Assembly (NCBI GenBank): GCA_944390485.1
Contig: CALXPQ010000006.1
Coordinates: 1 to 64,000 of the forward strand
Origin: Veillonellales bacterium
GTDB taxonomy: Bacteria > Bacillota > Negativicutes > Veillonellales > Dialisteraceae
Direction: 5' to 3'
Length of the DNA stretch: 64,000 bases
Of the stretch, positions 4,963 through 18,553 are shown piece by piece. The notes under the pieces are model-generated. The model saw only the letters and a program-made list of their open reading frames with translations. It did not search any database and was not told the origin of the DNA. Numbering within the stretch: the stretch's first letter is position 1; every line of letters starts with the position of its first letter. The position numbers and the translations under genes are program-made.

Positions 4963-5316
4963 CATCACAGAAAAATGCGCTGAAGAGAATCAGTAGCTTG
5001 CGCTGAAGGTGCAGAGAGCCGCGGGACGGTGCGACGCGGTGCGGATGCGGAAGTGAACTCGTCTCGGAGCAGCCCGTTGAACTCACAGTAGACGGCGCCG
5101 GATGCCTCCCGTTAGCAAAGGCAGGTCTATGACCGCAGAGGGCATGCTCCGGCATGAAATAGAGTGGTAACGCGAACGCTTTCGTCTCTTGGGACGAAGG
5201 CGTTTTCTGTTTTTCTCCCCTCTGCCGAGACCGGAAAGCGCCCGGTTCGTCCGGGAAGCAGAGTGGTACCGCGGGGCCCCCGTCTCTCCAGGAGAAAGGG
5301 GCCCTTTTATTTTTCC
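4963..5316 (+). promoter_or_regulatory. Leucine T-box riboswitch with two antiterminator/terminator modules
   Basis: This leader senses uncharged tRNA-Leu and lets transcription enter leuCDB when leucine is short. The GA motif (GAAGAGAATCAG) lies near 4983, the apical AGAGAGCC bulge near 5022, and the specifier triplet CUC at 5058-5060 after GTGAA. A Stem II S-turn (TGAAC/AGTA) follows near 5090. Two T-box sequences then appear: a variant AGAGTGGTAACGCG at 5161-5174 with terminator 5175-5215, and a canonical AGAGTGGTACCGCG at 5260-5273 with terminator 5274-5316. Only about 45 bases separate them, so the second module has no sensor of its own. The first has GTAAC where GTACC is usual. Confidence 0.9.
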
Positions 5317-5357
5317 CGTCCGCGCCCCGCGCGGAACGCACAAGGAGGAATCCATTC

Positions 5358-6617
5358 ATGGGAATGACAATGACGCAGAAAATCATGGCGGCCCATGCAG
5401 GGATGGACTCGGTGAAGCCGGGCGATCTCATCTACTGCAAGCTGGATCTGGTGATGGCCAACGACATCACCGCGCCGCCGTCCATCAAGGAATTCGACAA
5501 GATCGGCTGCCCGGTCTTCGACCGCACGAAGATCGCGCTCGTGCCGGACCATTTCACGCCGAATAAGGACATCAAGTCCGCAGGCCTGGCGAAGATCGTC
5601 CGCGACTTCGCGAAGAAGCACGACATCGAGCACTATTTCGAAGTGGGCCGCGCGGGCATCGAGCACGTCATCCTGCCGGAGATGGGCCTCGCCGCCCCGG
5701 GCATGATGATCATCGGCGCGGACTCCCACACCTGCACCTACGGCGCGCTCGGCGCGTTCTGCACGGGCGTGGGCTCCACCGATCTGGGCGTCGCCATGGC
5801 GACGGGCGAAGCGTGGTTCAAGGTGCCGGAAGCCATTAAAGTCGTCCTCACGGGGACGAAGCCCGAGGACGTCACCGGCAAGGACGTGGTGCTCACGCTC
5901 ATCGGCATGATCGGCGTGTCCGGCGCGCTCTACCAGTCTCTCGAATTCACCGGCCCGGGCGTGGCGTCTCTCTCCATGGCGGACCGCCTCTCCATCGCCA
6001 ATATGGCCATCGAAGCGGGCGCGAAGAACGGCATCTTCCCGGTGGACGAGCGGACCCGCGCCTACGAAGAGGGCCGCGTCTCCCATCCGTACACGGCGTA
6101 CGAGGCCGACCCCGACGCGGAGTACGCCCGGACCATCGAGATCAATCTGTCCGAGCTCTCCCCGGTGGTGGCCTTCCCGCACCTGCCGGAAAACACAAAG
6201 GTGGTGGGCACCTTCGGCGAGATCAAGATCGATCAAGTCGTGCTCGGCTCCTGCACGAACGGCCGGCTGGAAGATCTGGCCATCGCGGCGCGCATCTTCA
6301 AAGGGCACAAAGTCCACCCGGACGTGCGGTGCATCGTCATCCCCGGCAGCCGTCAGGTCTACCGCGACGCCATGAAGGCGGGCTACATCGACACCTTCAT
6401 CGAAGCGGGCTGCGCGGTCTCCACGCCCACCTGCGGGCCGTGCCTGGGCGGCTACATGGGCATCCTCACCGCCGGCGAGCGGTGCGTGTCCACCACGAAC
6501 CGCAATTTCCGCGGCCGCATGGGCCACGTGGACAGCGAAGTCTATCTCGCAGGGCCGCAGACCGCGGCGGCCAGCGCGATTCTCGGCAGGATTGCAGCAC
6601 CGAAGGAGGTCCGGTAA
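5358..6617 (+). CDS. leuC: 3-isopropylmalate dehydratase large subunit
   Basis: 419 residues. With LeuD it isomerises 2-isopropylmalate to 3-isopropylmalate in leucine synthesis. The three ligands of the [4Fe-4S] cluster are visible as C299 (GSCTNGR), C359 and C362 (CGPCLGG); the substrate-loop motif [10 protein letters not shown] is at 121-130. The length of about 420 puts it in the shorter, archaeal-type LeuC group rather than the 470-residue E. coli type, which agrees with a separate small LeuD. AGGAGG sits ten bases before ATG 5358. First gene of leuCDB, under the leucine T-box. Confidence 0.95.
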
Positions 6618-6618
6618 C

Positions 6619-7113
6619 ATGGCTATCGAAGGCAAAGTCTGGCGCTACGGGGACAACATCGACACGGACGTCATCATCCCCGCAAGATATCTCAATTCAT
6701 TCGACCCGAAGGAGCTCGCCTCCCACTGCATGGTGGACATCGACGAGAGCTTCGCGCAGAACGTCCAGCCCGGCGACATCATGGTGGGCGGCCGGAACTT
6801 CGGCTGCGGCTCTTCCCGCGAGCACGCCCCCATCGCCATCAAGGCGTCCGGCGTGCCGGTGATCGTGGCGGCGAGCTTCGCCCGCATCTTCTACCGGAAC
6901 GGCATCAACGTGGGCCTGCCGCTCCTCGAGATCGGCGACGACGTGGAGAAGATCCATGCCGGCGACCGGCTCCGCATCGACCTCTCTACCGGGAAGATCG
7001 AAGACCTCACCACGGGCGACGTCTTCCAGGCACCGCCGCTCCCCGGCTTCATCCAGGACATCGCGAAGGCGGGCGGCCTCGTCAATTACGTAAAGGAGAA
7101 AAAGCAGAAATGA
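6619..7113 (+). CDS. leuD: 3-isopropylmalate dehydratase small subunit
   Basis: 164 residues, partner of LeuC. The motif GGRNFGCGSSREHAP at about 55-69 is the swivel-domain signature of the aconitase family, and the start contains the DNIDTDVIIP segment. Start ATG 6619 was chosen because AAGGAGG lies at the end of leuC and the gap after the leuC TAA is a single base; the upstream in-frame ATG at 6592 lies inside leuC. The gene overlaps leuB by four bases (ATGA), so the three proteins are likely translated in step. Confidence 0.95.
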   Translation: MAIEGKVWRYGDNIDTDVIIPARYLNSFDPKELASHCMVDIDESFAQNVQPGDIMVGGRNFGCGSSREHAPIAIKASGVPVIVAASFARIFYRNGINVGLPLLEIGDDVEKIHAGDRLRIDLSTGKIEDLTTGDVFQAPPLPGFIQDIAKAGGLVNYVKEKKQK

Positions 7114-8183
7114 CAAAGAAAATCACCGTCATTCCCGGCGACGGCATCGGGAAAGAGATCACGGACGCGGCGGTGGCCGTGCTGAAAAAGATCGACGACG
7201 TCTATCAGATCGGCCTCGAATTCACCTGGAAGGACGCCGGCGGCACGGCGTACGACAAGTACGGCACGCCCCTGCCGGACGACACGGTCGCCTCCGCGAA
7301 GGCGGCGGACGCGGTGCTCTTCGGCTCCGTGGGCGGCGACCAGTGGGACCACCTCGCCCCCGACCTCCGCCCGGAGCGGGCCATCCTCGGCCTGCGCAAG
7401 GCCCTCGGCCTCTACGTGAACCTCCGCCCGGTGAAGGTGATGGACGTGCTGGCGGAATACTCCCCTCTGAAGGAAGAGATCGCCAAAGGCACGGACCTCC
7501 TCATCGTGCGCGAGCTCATCGGCGGCATCTACTTCGGCGACAAGTGCGAATCGGAAATGCACAACGGCGTGGAGCGCGCGTGGGATCTGGAAAACTACAG
7601 CATCCCCGAAGTGGAGCGCATCACCCGCTTCGCCATGACCGCCGCCCGGAAGCGCCGCAGCAAGGTGACCTCCGTGGACAAATCGAACGTGCTCGCCACG
7701 TCCCGCCTGTGGCGCCGCACGGTGACCCGCCTCGCCGAAGATTACCCGGACATCGCCGTAGACCATCTCTACGTGGACAACTGCGCCATGCAGCTCGCCA
7801 TCCATCCCACGCAGTTCGACGTGATCGTCACCTCGAACCTCTTCGGGGACATCCTCTCCGACGAAGCGGCGGTCCTCTCCGGCTCCATCGGCATGCTGCC
7901 CTCCGCCTCCATCGGCGAGAGCACCAGCCTCTATGAACCGATCCACGGCTCCGCGCCGGACATCGCCGGACAGGGCATCGCCAATCCCTGCGCGACCATC
8001 CTCTCCGCGGCGATGCTCCTGCGGTACTCCCTCGACGAAGACGCCGCGGCGGACGCGGTGGAGCAGGCCGTGGAAACCGCGCTCCGCGAAGGCTACCGCA
8101 CGCCGGACCTGTACCGCGAAGGCTTCACGAAAGTCGGCACGGAAGGCATGACCCAGGCCATCCTCGCCCACATCGGCGAATGA
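7110..8183 (+). CDS. leuB: 3-isopropylmalate dehydrogenase
   Basis: 357 residues, NAD-dependent oxidative decarboxylation of 3-isopropylmalate to 4-methyl-2-oxopentanoate. It shows the N-terminal IPGDGIGKEI, the substrate arginines in LRPERAILGLRK, the loop DKSNVLATSRLWR, the metal-binding DEAAVLSG, and GSAPDIAGQGIANP of the NAD site. Normal length for the family. It starts inside the leuD stop (ATGA overlap) and is followed by a strong terminator, closing the operon. leuA is not in the window. Confidence 0.96.
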   Translation: MTKKITVIPGDGIGKEITDAAVAVLKKIDDVYQIGLEFTWKDAGGTAYDKYGTPLPDDTVASAKAADAVLFGSVGGDQWDHLAPDLRPERAILGLRKALGLYVNLRPVKVMDVLAEYSPLKEEIAKGTDLLIVRELIGGIYFGDKCESEMHNGVERAWDLENYSIPEVERITRFAMTAARKRRSKVTSVDKSNVLATSRLWRRTVTRLAEDYPDIAVDHLYVDNCAMQLAIHPTQFDVIVTSNLFGDILSDEAAVLSGSIGMLPSASIGESTSLYEPIHGSAPDIAGQGIANPCATILSAAMLLRYSLDEDAAADAVEQAVETALREGYRTPDLYREGFTKVGTEGMTQAILAHIGE

Positions 8184-12849: not shown

Positions 12850-13562
<713 letters not shown>

Positions 13563-13563
<1 letters not shown>

Positions 13564-14327
13564 TATTCGTCCTCCTTCCCGAGATACGCTTCGATGACGG
13601 CGGGGTTGTTCTGTACGTCCGCCGGAGCCCCTTCGGCGAGCATGCGCCCGAAGTTGACCACGATGAGGCGGTTGCACAGGGTCATCACCAGATTCATGTC
13701 GTGTTCGATGAGGATGATGGTGATGCCGAACTGGTCGCGGATGCCGCGGATCAGGTCGATGAGGGCCGCAGTCTCGCTGTCGTTCATACCGGCGGCCGGT
13801 TCATCCAGCAGGATGATCTGCGGATGCGCGGCCATGGCGCGGGCGATCTCCAGCTTGCGCTGCTTGCCGTAGGGCAGCTCGGTGGCGAGATGGTCCGCCA
13901 CGTCGTCGAGCCCGACGTACTGCAGGAGCTTGTGCGCTTCCTCCACGGCTTCCGCTTCTTCCTTCTTCATGGAGGCGGTGTGGAGGAGGCTCCCGAGGAG
14001 GCCGGTCTTCATGCGGCAGTGATGCCCCACGAGGATGTGCTCCAGCACGGTCATGTTCGCGAAGAGGCGGATGTTCTGGAACGTGCGGGCGATGCCGCCG
14101 TCGATGATCTCGAAGGTCTTCTTCCCGCAGATGGACTGGCCGTTGAAGAGGACGTCCCCGGAGGTCACCGGATAGACGCCGGTGATCATGTTGAAGATGG
14201 TAGTCTTGCCGGCGCCGTTCGGCCCGATGATGCCGAAGATGTCCCCCTTCTCCACCTGGAAGGAGATGTCGGAGAGGGCGGTGATGCCGCCGAATTTTTT
14301 GACGACGTTCTTTAATTCAAGAAGCAC
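13563..14327 (-). CDS. livG: Branched-chain amino-acid ABC transporter, ATPase LivG
   Basis: 254 residues, second ATPase of the Liv system. It shows GPNGAGKTT (Walker A), the LivG-specific long insert between Walker A and the signature (ARTFQNIRLFANMTVLEHI), a divergent signature around LPYGKQRKLEIARA, and ILLDEPAAGM (Walker B). The start codon is GTG at 14327, with AGGAGG nine bases before it and only two bases after the livM stop; it overlaps livF by one base. Confidence 0.95.
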
Positions 14328-14329
14328 GG

Positions 14330-15277
14330 TCAGTTGCCTCCTTTCGGGGATTTCTTCAGACGGCGGGCGATGTACTTCACCGCGTCATAGGACAGGATGC
14401 CGTCCGGGCGGAAGCCCATGAGCGCCACCAGCATGAGGCCGTAGATGATGTCGCGGTATTCGGACATGGCGCGGAGGGATTCCGGCACGATGGTGAGGAC
14501 GGTCGCCCCGAGGAGCGGGCCCCACATGACGTTGCTGCCGCCGAATACGGTGTAGAGCAGCATGTCCACGACTTTGTGCCACGTGAAGTCGGTCGGGCTG
14601 ATGAAGTAGGTGGCGTGCGCGTAGAGCGCCCCGGCCACGCCGGCGAAGAAGGCGCTGAAGAGGAACGCCATCATTTTGTAGTACACCACGTTGATGCCGG
14701 AGAGGGACGCGGCGTATTCGTCCGCCTTGATGGCGGCGAAGGCGCGGCCCACGCGGGAGTGTTCCAGTTTGTACCAGAAGAAGAAGATCAGCACCACGAG
14801 GATGAGAAGGGCGATGCACATGAGGAGCTGCCCTGCGGTCTGGGAATCGAGGCCGAGCGCGTCGATGAGGCCCAGGTCGCTCGCGTAGTCAGAGAGCGAG
14901 CTCGCCATGGACGGGATGCCCGAGAGGCCGAGCGCGCCGTTCGTGATCTTCATATTGAGGGCGATGACGCGCACCACTTCGCCGAAGCCGAGCGTCGCGA
15001 TGGCCAGGTACAGGCCGCGGAGCCGGATGGTGGGGATGCCGATGATGAGGGCCACCGCCGCCGCGACGATGCCGCCGCAGAGGATGGAGAGGGGCATGGG
15101 CACGTCCAGCTTCATCGCGAGGATGGCCGAAGTGTACGCGCCGAAGCTCATGAAGCCCGCGTTGCCCAGAGAGACCAGCCCGGTGCACAGCGTCATGTAG
15201 ATGGTGAGCGCCAGGATGATGTTGATGCAGATGAACACAAAGACCTGCAGAAAGTAACCATTGAGCAATTCTTCCAT
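14330..15277 (-). CDS. livM: Branched-chain amino-acid ABC transporter, permease LivM
   Basis: 315 residues with about nine hydrophobic segments. Recognised by the LivM pattern LVSLGNAGFMSFGAYTSAI near residue 35, IATLGFGEVVRVI near 95, and GRAFAAIKADEYAASLSGI near 180, the cytoplasmic loop that touches the ATPases. It forms the membrane channel with LivH. Its ATG overlaps the livH stop by one base (TAATG). Confidence 0.95.
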   Translation of the reverse strand: MEELLNGYFLQVFVFICINIILALTIYMTLCTGLVSLGNAGFMSFGAYTSAILAMKLDVPMPLSILCGGIVAAAVALIIGIPTIRLRGLYLAIATLGFGEVVRVIALNMKITNGALGLSGIPSMASSLSDYASDLGLIDALGLDSQTAGQLLMCIALLILVVLIFFFWYKLEHSRVGRAFAAIKADEYAASLSGINVVYYKMMAFLFSAFFAGVAGALYAHATYFISPTDFTWHKVVDMLLYTVFGGSNVMWGPLLGATVLTIVPESLRAMSEYRDIIYGLMLVALMGFRPDGILSYDAVKYIARRLKKSPKGGN

Positions 15278-16164
15278 TACGGTCTTCCTCCTTTCCCAGC
15301 CTTAGAGAACAATCCTTCCGGCCGGAGGAAAAGGATCAGGATGATGAGGCCGAAGGCGACGGCGTCGCGGTAGGTGGACGCCCCGTAGGCGACGCTGAAG
15401 ACTTCCGCGATGCCCAGGATGAATCCGCCCGCCATGGCGCCTTCCACATTGCCCAGGCCCCCCATGATGAGGACGGCCAGGCCCTTGAAGCCCATCGCCG
15501 TGCCCATGGTCGGCTCGATCGCGTTGAAGGAGAGGCCGATGAGGACGCCCGCCGCCGCGCCGAGGGCCGACGCGAGCATGACGGTGAAGGTGATGATGAG
15601 GCCCGTATTGATGCCGAGGAGACCGGCGGTCTCGATATTTTCCGAAGTGGCGCGCACCGCCTTGCCGATCTTCGTCTTATTCAGCATGAGCGCGAGGAGC
15701 ACCATGAGGACGACCGCCGTGCCGAGGCTGACGATCTGGATGCCGGAGATCTTGAAGGCGCCCATGTCCATGAGCTCGCTGCTGATGGTGGACGGGAAGG
15801 ATCTCGTCTGCGGGCCCCACACGAGGAGCGCCACGCTCTCGAGGAAGATCGACACGCCGATGGTGCTGATGAGCGGAGCCAGATGGGTGACTTTGCGGCG
15901 GCGCAGCGGACGCAGCGCAAAGAGCTCCAGTAAATACCCGAGGACCGCCCCGCCGATCATCGCGCCGATGAGCGCCGGGAAGATCCCCATGCCAGCCTCT
16001 GTGACGAGCAGGAGCCCGATGTACGCGCCCACCATGAAGATGCCGCCGTGCGCCATGTTGACGATGTTCAGCACGCCGAAGACCAGCGTGTAGCCGATGG
16101 CGATGACCGCGTAGGCGCTGCCCAGAGTCAAACCGTTGATAAGCTGCTGAGAAAACACGTTCAT
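15277..16164 (-). CDS. livH: Branched-chain amino-acid ABC transporter, permease LivH
   Basis: 295 residues with about eight hydrophobic segments; the N-terminus QQLINGLTLGSAYAVIAIGYTL... and NMAHGGIFMVGAY are the LivH signature, and AVRATSENIETAGLLGI is the ATPase-coupling loop. It is the first gene of livHMGF and is preceded by a 500-base leader holding two T-box sensors. The gene for the binding protein (livJ) lies just upstream on the same strand but has its own promoter and T-box. Confidence 0.95.
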   Translation of the reverse strand: MNVFSQQLINGLTLGSAYAVIAIGYTLVFGVLNIVNMAHGGIFMVGAYIGLLLVTEAGMGIFPALIGAMIGGAVLGYLLELFALRPLRRRKVTHLAPLISTIGVSIFLESVALLVWGPQTRSFPSTISSELMDMGAFKISGIQIVSLGTAVVLMVLLALMLNKTKIGKAVRATSENIETAGLLGINTGLIITFTVMLASALGAAAGVLIGLSFNAIEPTMGTAMGFKGLAVLIMGGLGNVEGAMAGGFILGIAEVFSVAYGASTYRDAVAFGLIILILFLRPEGLFSKAGKGGRP

Positions 16165-16260: not shown

Positions 16261-16756
16261 AAAAGCCCCTGCCGCAGTCTCCGCCGATGACTGTGACAGG
16301 GGCGCTTCCGCGCGGTACCACCCTATTTTTTGCTCTCGGGAAACGCGTACCGGGGCGGTCTCCTTCCATAAAAAATCCCCTACCTGCATGCGCAGATAGG
16401 GGCGTTTGACGCGGTACCACCCTACATTATACTTTGTTTCCGATCCGTAACGAGGATTCACGCCTTTCCTTACTCCATTCAGGAAAGGAGCTCCCGAGTG
16501 ATATATTGGGAATACGGAATGCGCCGTCTTGCACCGCCCGCCGGCTCTCTGCAGTCATGGACCGTCTTCCTTTTTGCTCTCGATCATAGCCTGTGCGCCT
16601 GATAACGGAGGCAGCGCCGGCAGATACTCGATTTCCCCGCCGGGACTCCCAGGTGAGCTTGCGTCCCGCTGCCCGCCGGCTTCCACCAGCCGCCGGCTCT
16701 CTGTGCCGCGTGACAGGGCGCTTTTCCCTGATCTTCGTCTTTCTGATTCGGTTATA
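16261..16756 (-). promoter_or_regulatory. Double-sensor (Leu + Ile) T-box leader of livHMGF with two terminator modules
   Basis: On the minus strand two complete sensor parts stand in a row. Sensor 1 has a GAAGATCAG GA-motif near 16735, the apical AGAGAGCC, specifier CUC (16655-16657, Leu) and a Stem II S-turn (GGAA/AGTA) near 16625. Sensor 2 has ATGATCGAGAG near 16585, AGAGAGCC again, specifier AUC (16500-16502, Ile) and an S-turn (TGAA/AGTA) near 16475. No T-box motif lies between them. Then follow AGGGTGGTACCGCG at 16410-16423 with terminator 16370-16403, and a second copy at 16311-16324 with terminator 16261-16303. Specifiers were placed by aligning the closing GGGAGC segment with the leucine leader. 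Confidence 0.85.
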
Positions 16757-16762
16757 TCGTAT

Positions 16763-16790
16763 ATTATACAAATTTTGCAGGGCCTGTCAA
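16763..16790 (-). promoter_or_regulatory. Promoter of livHMGF
   Basis: TTGACA (16785-16790) and TATAAT (16763-16768) on the minus strand, 16 bases apart, immediately before the double T-box leader. Confidence 0.85.
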
Positions 16791-16944: not shown

Positions 16945-18111
16945 TTATTCCAGCGGCACCCACTGCCCGTTCTTGACCTGGAGGATGTCCAGCTCCATCT
17001 TCGGATCGCGGTTCTCATCGAATTCGAACTGGCCGGTCGCCCCTTCGAAGCCTTTGATCTTGGCGAGGGTATCGCGGAACTTCTTGCGGTCCGTCGTGGT
17101 GCCGGACTGTTCCACCGCCTGATGGAGCGTGTACATTGCGTCGTAAGCCTGTGCGGAGAACTGGTCCGGTTCATGGCCGTACTTCTCCTTGAAGGCCTTG
17201 CGGAAAGCCTGGGCCTTTTCGGTCTGGCGCTCCGGATTCCACGGGGTCGCGACCAGCGTGCCGTCCGCCGCGGCGCCCGCCTGCTTGATGTATTCCGGGC
17301 TGTTGAAGCCGTTGTTGCCGATGATCATCTGGTTCATGCCCATGTCGCGGGCTTTCTTGGCGATGAGCGCGCCTTCCTGGTAGAGGCTGGCCACGCAGAT
17401 GATGTCCGGATTCGCCGCCTGGATCTTCGTGAGCTGCGCGGAGAAATCCGTATCCTTTTCCGCGAAGGTCTCGGTGGCCACTACGTCGATGCCCATTTCC
17501 TTGAACAGCTCCTGATAGATGCCGTTCTCGCCCACCATCTGGTCATTGTTGTTGCAGTAGAGGATGGCCGCCGTCTTGAATCCCAGCTTGTCGTGGGCCT
17601 TCTTCACGGTCTGCGGGATGGCCATCTTGCCGGGGATGGCGTTGCGGAAGATGTAGTCGCCGATGTCGGTGATGCCCGGCGCGGTGGTGCCCGTGCCGAA
17701 GGCTACGACTTTCGACTGCTGGGCGATCGGGCCGGCGGCGAACATCTCGCCGGAGAAGGTCGGGCCCTCGATGGCCAGCACCTTGTCCTGCTCGATGAGC
17801 TTCTTCATGGCGTTGATGGCTTCGGTCTTGTTGCCCTTCGTGTCATAGAACGCGATCTCCAGCTTCACCTTCGTATTCGGGTTCGCGTTGATCTCCTCCA
17901 CGGCGAGGTCCACGCCTTCCTTCATGGCGATGCCGTACGCCGCCCCGGGGCCGCTCGTCGCTTCGAGGACGCCGATCTTCGCCGTCTTGCCCGCCGCGCC
18001 GGACGCGCCGCCTTCCGACTTCTCTCCGCCGCCGCAGCCTGCGAACGCTCCTGCGAGCATCAGAGCGGCCCCTGCCGCTGCCAGACGTTTCATCCATTTC
18101 TTTTCCATCAT
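16945..18111 (-). CDS. livJ: Branched-chain amino-acid ABC transporter, substrate-binding lipoprotein
   Basis: 388 residues. A lipoprotein signal peptide ends in LAGAFAGC (lipobox cysteine near residue 26), so the mature protein is anchored in the envelope. The rest is a type I periplasmic-binding fold of the Leu/Ile/Val group (IGVLEATSGPGAAYG, then EGPTFSGEM and PQTVKKAHDKLG). It captures the amino acid and hands it to LivHM. Start ATG 18111 is preferred because AAAGGGG lies seven bases upstream; an ATG eight codons earlier lacks a site. It has a valine T-box of its own, so binding protein and permease are controlled separately. Confidence 0.93.
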   Translation of the reverse strand: MMEKKWMKRLAAAGAALMLAGAFAGCGGGEKSEGGASGAAGKTAKIGVLEATSGPGAAYGIAMKEGVDLAVEEINANPNTKVKLEIAFYDTKGNKTEAINAMKKLIEQDKVLAIEGPTFSGEMFAAGPIAQQSKVVAFGTGTTAPGITDIGDYIFRNAIPGKMAIPQTVKKAHDKLGFKTAAILYCNNNDQMVGENGIYQELFKEMGIDVVATETFAEKDTDFSAQLTKIQAANPDIICVASLYQEGALIAKKARDMGMNQMIIGNNGFNSPEYIKQAGAAADGTLVATPWNPERQTEKAQAFRKAFKEKYGHEPDQFSAQAYDAMYTLHQAVEQSGTTTDRKKFRDTLAKIKGFEGATGQFEFDENRDPKMELDILQVKNGQWVPLE

Positions 18112-18168
18112 TGTTGTGCCCCTTTCTTTGTCCATTCCGTAAACTCTGCCTTCAGTACAGCCTCGCCA

Positions 18169-18518
18169 TGAAAAAAAGCCCCCGCCTCCGGATGCATGCT
18201 TTCCGGAGACAGGGGCGCTTCTCGCGCGGTACCACCCTTTGTTTCACTCGCCTACGGTACGCCGCAGGGCCCGCCGTATACAAAAAGCCCCCATCTCATC
18301 TCGAGATAGGGGCGATGTTCCGCGGTACCACCCTACATTGTACTTATAGGAGTGTCCGTAACGGGGACCGGCCGTTCCTTCTTACTGGATTCAGAAGAAA
18401 TACTCACGAGGGACATATCGCACTCCAGTATGCATCAGCTTGCACCATCCGCTGACTCTCTGCAGTCATCTCTGAAACGCTCTTTCAAATCTCGTTCATC
18501 GTATCTGCTGTATTGAAT
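18169..18518 (-). promoter_or_regulatory. Valine T-box leader of livJ with two antiterminator/terminator modules
   Basis: On the minus strand Stem I starts with ATGAACGAGA near 18500, carries the apical AGAGAGTC near 18455 and the specifier GUC (Val) at 18412-18414 followed by CCTCG. The Stem II S-turn (TGAA/AGTA) lies near 18385. Two T-box motifs follow: AGGGTGGTACCGCG at 18321-18334 with terminator 18282-18313, and a second at about 18224-18237 with terminator 18171-18216. The second module has no Stem I of its own. Both terminator stems are close relatives of the corresponding livH stems, so the two leaders probably arose by duplication and differ in the specifier by G versus A at its first base. 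Confidence 0.88.
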
Positions 18519-18524
18519 GATTGA

Positions 18525-18553
18525 ATTATACACGCCTCCCGCGGAAAAGTCAA
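18525..18553 (-). promoter_or_regulatory. Promoter of livJ
   Basis: TTGACT (18548-18553) and TATAAT (18525-18530), 17 bases apart on the minus strand. Confidence 0.85.

Follow-up and report, generated by a model that had tools for sequence, protein, structure and literature searches.

The predicted branched-chain amino acid transport locus

The window, the whole 64,000-nucleotide stretch of DNA that was analysed, belongs to the genome of a Dialister-family gut bacterium, assembled in 10 contigs (94% complete). Its minus strand carries a gene for a branched-chain amino acid binding protein (livJ) and, downstream, the permease and ATPase genes livHMGF, each with its own promoter:

18525..18553, minus strand: livJ promoter (TTGACT, 17 nt, TATAAT; 11 of 12 consensus positions)
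16945..18111, minus strand: livJ, branched-chain amino acid binding protein (PF13458, 219 bits)
16763..16790, minus strand: livH promoter (TTGACA, 16 nt, TATAAT; 12 of 12 consensus positions)
12850..16164, minus strand: livHMGF, encoding the permeases LivH (16164-15277) and LivM (15277-14330) and the ATPases LivG (14327-13563) and LivF (ending at 12850)

The start of livJ is probably at 18111, as judged from the ribosome binding site and the sister proteins; the mechanical open reading frame begins at 18135. A scan of the region for sigma-70-type promoters returned 5 promoter-like sites against 1.0 expected. The NCBIfam models for LivH, LivM, LivG, and LivF are the top matches of the livHMGF products, yet the matches score below the curated cut-offs. 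The nearest named records for LivH are from uncultured Veillonellaceae (98% identity), followed by Dialister (90% to 91%). A Peripla_BP_6 binding protein adjoins the LivHMGF-type genes, as expected of such an importer, and LivJ and LivHMGF are predicted to form a branched-chain amino acid (HAAT) ABC importer for leucine, isoleucine, and valine.

Two T-box leaders of unequal build

Both transcription units begin with leaders that share stem I with its specifier, stem II, the IIA/B element, the UGGN bulge, and the terminator/antiterminator pair with the T-box family (RF00230). The livJ leader consists of one stem I, or decoder, and two T-box gates, and it scores 90.6 bits against RF00230 (E 8e-20), just below the Rfam gathering score of 93 bits:

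18305..18508, minus strand: T-box leader core of livJ, with stem I, stem II, IIA/B (CCGUUA), and the first antiterminator (RF00230 full model 1-219)
18412..18414, minus strand: livJ specifier GUC (valine), with one spacer base between it and the helix CUCGU
18321..18334, minus strand: livJ gate 1, first T-box sequence, exact AGGGTGGTACCGCG
18287..18313, minus strand: livJ terminator 1, with GCCCCT common to terminator 1 and antiterminator 1
18225..18238, minus strand: livJ gate 2, second T-box sequence, exact AGGGTGGTACCGCG
18178..18216, minus strand: livJ terminator 2 (terminator fold -31.8 kcal/mol)

The livH leader (approximately 16790-16250, minus strand) lies outside the interval to which the original prediction was assigned. 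It places two decoders, with the specifiers CUC (Leu) and AUC (Ile), ahead of two gates:

16645..16738, minus strand: first decoder of livH (stem I, then stem II and IIA/B), without a gate of its own (RF00230 partial match, 33 bits, E 5e-5)
16655..16657, minus strand: first livH specifier CUC (leucine), read from stem I
16395..16596, minus strand: second decoder and first antiterminator of livH (RF00230, 82.6 bits, E 9e-18, just below the 93-bit gathering score)
16500..16502, minus strand: second livH specifier AUC (isoleucine), retained in relatives
16410..16423, minus strand: livH gate 1, first T-box sequence, exact AGGGTGGTACCGCG
16377..16402, minus strand: livH terminator 1, its arm carrying the CCCCT common to the antiterminator
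16311..16324, minus strand: livH gate 2, second T-box sequence, exact AGGGTGGTACCGCG
16265..16303, minus strand: livH terminator 2 (terminator fold -29.4 kcal/mol)

The weakly scoring first decoder has a counterpart in the Dialister genome G003 that reaches 60 bits against RF00230, and two orthologous Dialister livH leaders score 116.5 and 99.8 bits. The exact 14-mer AGGGTGGTACCGCG is expected about 0.0005 times per 64 kb on both strands together, and each leader contains it twice. A scan allowing up to 3 mismatches was dropped since shuffled sequence is expected to yield 6.9 sites, as many as were found. At all four livJ and livH gates, the CCCCT is common to the antiterminator and a strong terminator, so that the two folds are mutually exclusive; folding energy by itself favours the terminators.

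Specifier frames and matching tRNAs

The specifiers originally proposed, GUC for livJ and CUC plus AUC for livHMGF, were borne out by comparison with related genomes. The GUC of livJ is retained in the sister species G009 and G010, and the CUC and AUC of livH, with CUC at the equivalent place, are retained in both sister species and in four Dialister genomes (G003, G006, G007, and G008). Covariation was assessed on 24 stem I/stem II segments, taken from the family's livJ-type and livH leaders. Helices drawn for stems I and II pair in 84% of cells, compared with 40% to 46% when they are slid along the alignment, and 24 of the 28 pairs show double changes. Within this set, the helix that begins one base past the specifier pairs in 91.7% of cells, with double changes at three of its five pairs. 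A further helix in upper stem I, based on the livJ sequence only, was rejected: it pairs in just 55% of cells, and the alignment is unreliable there. Since an automatic parser produced many false frames, it was discarded, and the specifiers were assigned manually using the alignment and the helix. In the leader alignment, specifier bases 2 and 3 are invariant (U and C), and base 1 alone varies between G, A, and C.

The specifier loop of livJ is short, and in principle three frames are possible, in which case livJ might be read one base off (UGU or UCC) and not have a valine leader at all. We regard this as very improbable. According to the TBDB rule, the specifier sits one base ahead of the helix (PMC7778990), and because the helix next to it covaries, the frame is fixed as GUC. 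The shifted readings would also call for tRNA-Ser (G73) in the case of UCC or tRNA-Cys (U73) in the case of UGU, neither of which matches the UGGU present in all four livJ and livH gates. Elsewhere in the genome, glycine and threonine leaders carry UGGA (U73) and serine leaders UGGC (G73). The assembly contains tRNA-Val(GAC) and tRNA-Leu(GAG), both with A73, matching UGGU; tRNA-Ile(GAU) was not recovered among the tRNAs collected via Rfam matches in this 10-contig, 94% complete assembly.

Predicted response of the two leaders

The anatomy of both leaders is consistent with transcription-attenuating T-box riboswitches. The nascent leader would bind the tRNA whose anticodon fits the specifier, and the CCA end of an uncharged tRNA would stabilise the antiterminator, allowing RNA polymerase to read on. 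For livJ, a response to tRNA-Val is predicted, in which one decoder would have to open two gates in series, an arrangement that should tighten repression. For livHMGF, tRNA-Leu and tRNA-Ile decoders would act ahead of two gates. The second gates could also be relics.

How two decoders might act together is suggested by relatives. The three window-genus species, like G006, G007, and G008, have two decoders and two gates ahead of livH. Two decoders with one gate are found in G003 (one contig, 99% complete; CUC then AUC) and in Allisonella G001 (AUC then CUC). Because a single T-box bulge holds one CCA end, either tRNA should be enough to open these leaders. Judged from these relatives, the livH leader in the window more likely acts as an OR than as an AND switch, and its second gate would add stringency. 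If valine alone were scarce, the livH leader would not induce the permease, a prediction that fits the model poorly unless the basal level of permease suffices. No transcription terminator was found in the interval from livJ to the livH promoter; therefore, some livJ transcripts may enter the livH gates, which such read-through transcripts would still need to pass.

Three binding proteins with a probable shared permease

A whole-genome search with LivJ identified two further paralogues (77% and 73% identity) that adjoin each other on contig 7, where they occupy positions 4969-6132 and 6757-7914. Each has its own T-box with two gates, one with an AUC (Ile) and the other with a CUC (Leu) specifier. 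The flanking genes encode an HD-domain protein and glycine cleavage components, with no permease genes alongside. Only one close livH was found in the genome; the next nearest, at 45% identity, lies beside its own, more distant binding proteins. Given the single close livH and the orphan Ile and Leu paralogues, LivHMGF is probably common to three binding proteins, which are under Val, Ile, and Leu T-boxes. A split of the three amino acids between two transcripts of a single transporter is not supported, given these two additional paralogues. The same arrangement of one permease and three binding proteins occurs in G009 and G010, the two sister species. The genome also encodes a fourth binding protein, more distant (50%), whose leader likewise has an AUC specifier. 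Gate 2 of the Ile-type paralogue on contig 7 (L056 1767-1780) reads UGGC rather than UGGU and is not expected to pair with A73; in both sister species it is UGGU.

In the LIV-I/LS system of E. coli, binding proteins of differing specificity (LivJ and LivK) share one LivHMGF. The set described here similarly joins several binding proteins to one LivHMGF, but it has three in place of two, and each part is under a T-box for its own tRNA.

Origin of the leaders

The original prediction held that the livJ and livH leaders are duplicates that drifted from valine to isoleucine by a G to A change. If this duplication were recent, it would fit the single base that separates GUC from AUC and the terminator starts GCCCCTATCT and GCCCCTGTC, which are indeed present in both leaders. 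These starts are not special to the pair, as the Ile leader on contig 7 has the same two, and they are partly forced because CCCCT must pair with the AGGG of the T-box. The livJ leader is 58% identical to the second stem I/stem II module of livH, the same as to many other leaders; the Ile-type livJ leader of Veillonellaceae Marseille-P2974 shares 61% identity with it, and several others share 58% to 60%. In a tree of leaders, livJ joins the Marseille-P2974 Ile-type livJ leader (95/75 support), and the livH second modules fall elsewhere; the tree is mostly unresolved with long branches, and trees of whole T-boxes have been described as unreliable (Wels et al., PMC2494555). A recent duplication with a Val to Ile change is thus improbable. 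With livJ placed beside an Ile-type leader in the tree, a change from AUC to GUC ahead of livJ appears likelier than the reverse. T-box duplication with specifier change has itself been described before (Wels et al., PMC2494555).

Residues that track the specifier in the ligand pocket

To compare the binding proteins with their specifiers, we counted alignment columns in which a specifier class has one residue in both genera (the window genus and Dialister, whose set is described below) that is absent from the other classes there. Matching Val with Val, Ile with Ile, and Leu with Leu between the genera gives 8 class-specific columns, compared with 2 to 6 for the five other matchings. The Val class is marked by 57 L, 101 G, 126 T, and 327 S and the Leu class by 141 A, 149 S, 155 V, and 251 F. 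The Ile class has no such columns and looks like the default state. Columns 126, 149, and 251 correspond to L77, A100, and Y202 of E. coli LivJ, placing three of the eight columns among the ten ligand contacts listed for the LIV-binding protein (PMC13103812), though the sequences are few (only 5 GUC leaders, in two genera) and the alignment to E. coli is of low identity. The hypergeometric p value of this overlap (0.00097) treats columns as independent and was calculated after the alignment had been inspected. At column 126 the Val class has T and all others M, and at the adjacent column 127 (C78 in E. coli) it has F or L, whereas T occupies this column in the Ile and Leu paralogues of both genera. 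The pocket contacts are identical to those of E. coli only in part (Y18, S79, T102, and F276). These residues provide a link between specifier and binding site that does not depend on the RNA, and the LivJ of the window is probably a valine-preferring binding protein whose pocket diverged along with its specifier.

A competing explanation is that all of these proteins bind leucine, isoleucine, and valine broadly and that the specifiers merely place one multi-specific system under three starvation signals. The LivJ of E. coli is a broad binder, and the single-LivJ operons of Veillonella have a Leu specifier without the Leu-class pocket residues. The same has been expected of LIVCS symporters under amino acid-specific T-boxes (Wels et al., PMC2494555). 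However, residues whose distribution follows the specifier class in both genera include ligand-pocket positions, and three paralogues would be redundant were all of them broad; we therefore consider uniformly broad binding unlikely. Taken as a whole, the best explanation is a T-box-controlled livJ (Val) and livHMGF (Leu and Ile), with one permease serving three binding proteins and a LivJ that prefers valine, and we regard this combination as probable.

A second set in Dialister

Dialister G008 also has three binding proteins, under GUC, AUC, and CUC leaders, and the fragmented Dialister genome G006 contains one GUC and one CUC binding-protein leader. In other families of the order we found single close LivJ copies only. 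In the protein tree the Dialister proteins group together, apart from those of the window genus, and the specifier classes do not form clades. Since the sets are grouped by genus, either specialisation took place twice or one old set has been obscured by gene conversion inside each genus.

Under the latter history, a single ancestral triplication produced the Val/Ile/Leu set, and gene conversion mimics parallel duplicates. This would account for the identical residues at pocket positions in both genera and for the G at position 101 of the Val class, which matches the outgroups. The sorting of the sets by genus speaks against it, with modest rejection only: forcing the Val proteins into one clade costs 21 log units (AU p 0.04), and forcing the Leu proteins into one clade is rejected at AU p 0.025. 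One old set is a serious possibility, if a slightly doubtful one; it concerns history only and is compatible with a valine-preferring LivJ and a shared permease. We propose just as tentatively, at somewhat less than even confidence, that sensors have become uncoupled from gates, giving a two-tRNA OR switch in G003 and Allisonella, and that the pockets and specifiers of three binding proteins serving one ABC permease changed together, apparently in parallel in two genera.

Comparison with known T-box systems

Partially and fully tandem T-boxes are known, and their mode of action was described as unexplained in a 2020 review (PMC7583486). The leaders here differ from the partially tandem forms of RF00230 in having one decoder with two gates (livJ) or two decoders for different amino acids with two gates (livH), reduced to one gate in G003 and Allisonella. 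In the tandem T-boxes of branched-chain amino acid biosynthesis, complete sensor-plus-gate units stand in series (PMC12452182). Those leaders likewise have more than one T-box unit before branched-chain amino acid genes, and read-through must pass each gate, whereas sensors and gates here do not correspond one to one. In Lactobacilli, LIVCS symporters of the Ile and Val types have been listed, and in such paralogous transporters the specifier predicts the substrate and duplication is followed by specifier change, as it appears to be here (Wels et al. 2008, PMC2494555). Whole one-protein symporters were multiplied in those cases; here, in contrast, duplication has affected the capture protein of an ABC importer alone, giving one for each amino acid, with one permease. 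We found no account of Dialister liv T-boxes in the literature searched.

If the proposed explanation is true, a single leader base (NUC, where N is G, A, or C) identifies the branched-chain amino acid that is captured by each binding protein. The pairing of switch and pocket in two genera would then allow close paralogues to be used to test how well the specifier predicts transporter specificity. The natural leader variants, with 1 or 2 decoders and 1, 2, or 3 gates, provide material to test partially tandem T-boxes.

Additional T-box leaders

The three-gate form was found in genome G011 (L081 1094-1416), where a liv-type binding-protein leader has one stem I and then three T-box gates. Within the window, the leader of leuC (3-isopropylmalate dehydratase; 4971-5310, plus strand) has one decoder and two gates like that of livJ, with CUC at 5058-5060 and gates at 5161-5174 and 5260-5273. 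The livJ leader of Anaerospora hongkongensis (L024 4380-4800) has UUC (Phe), one base away from the CUC (Leu) of its relatives, and the liv operon of this species is perhaps phenylalanine-responsive. On contig 2 of the genome containing the window, a two-gate T-box with a probable UUC (Phe) specifier (L046 1501-1830) precedes a gene for a periplasmic protein resembling cyclohexadienyl dehydratase or an amino acid binding protein, and on contig 4 a Leu-type CUC T-box with one gate (L062 1501-1714) precedes a gene resembling the isocitrate lyase/PEP mutase family. Among the approximately 20 T-box leaders of this genome (L046-L066), double gates are found mainly ahead of transport and biosynthesis genes, and single gates ahead of genes resembling aminoacyl-tRNA synthetases (thrS-, serS-, glyQ-, and ileS-like).
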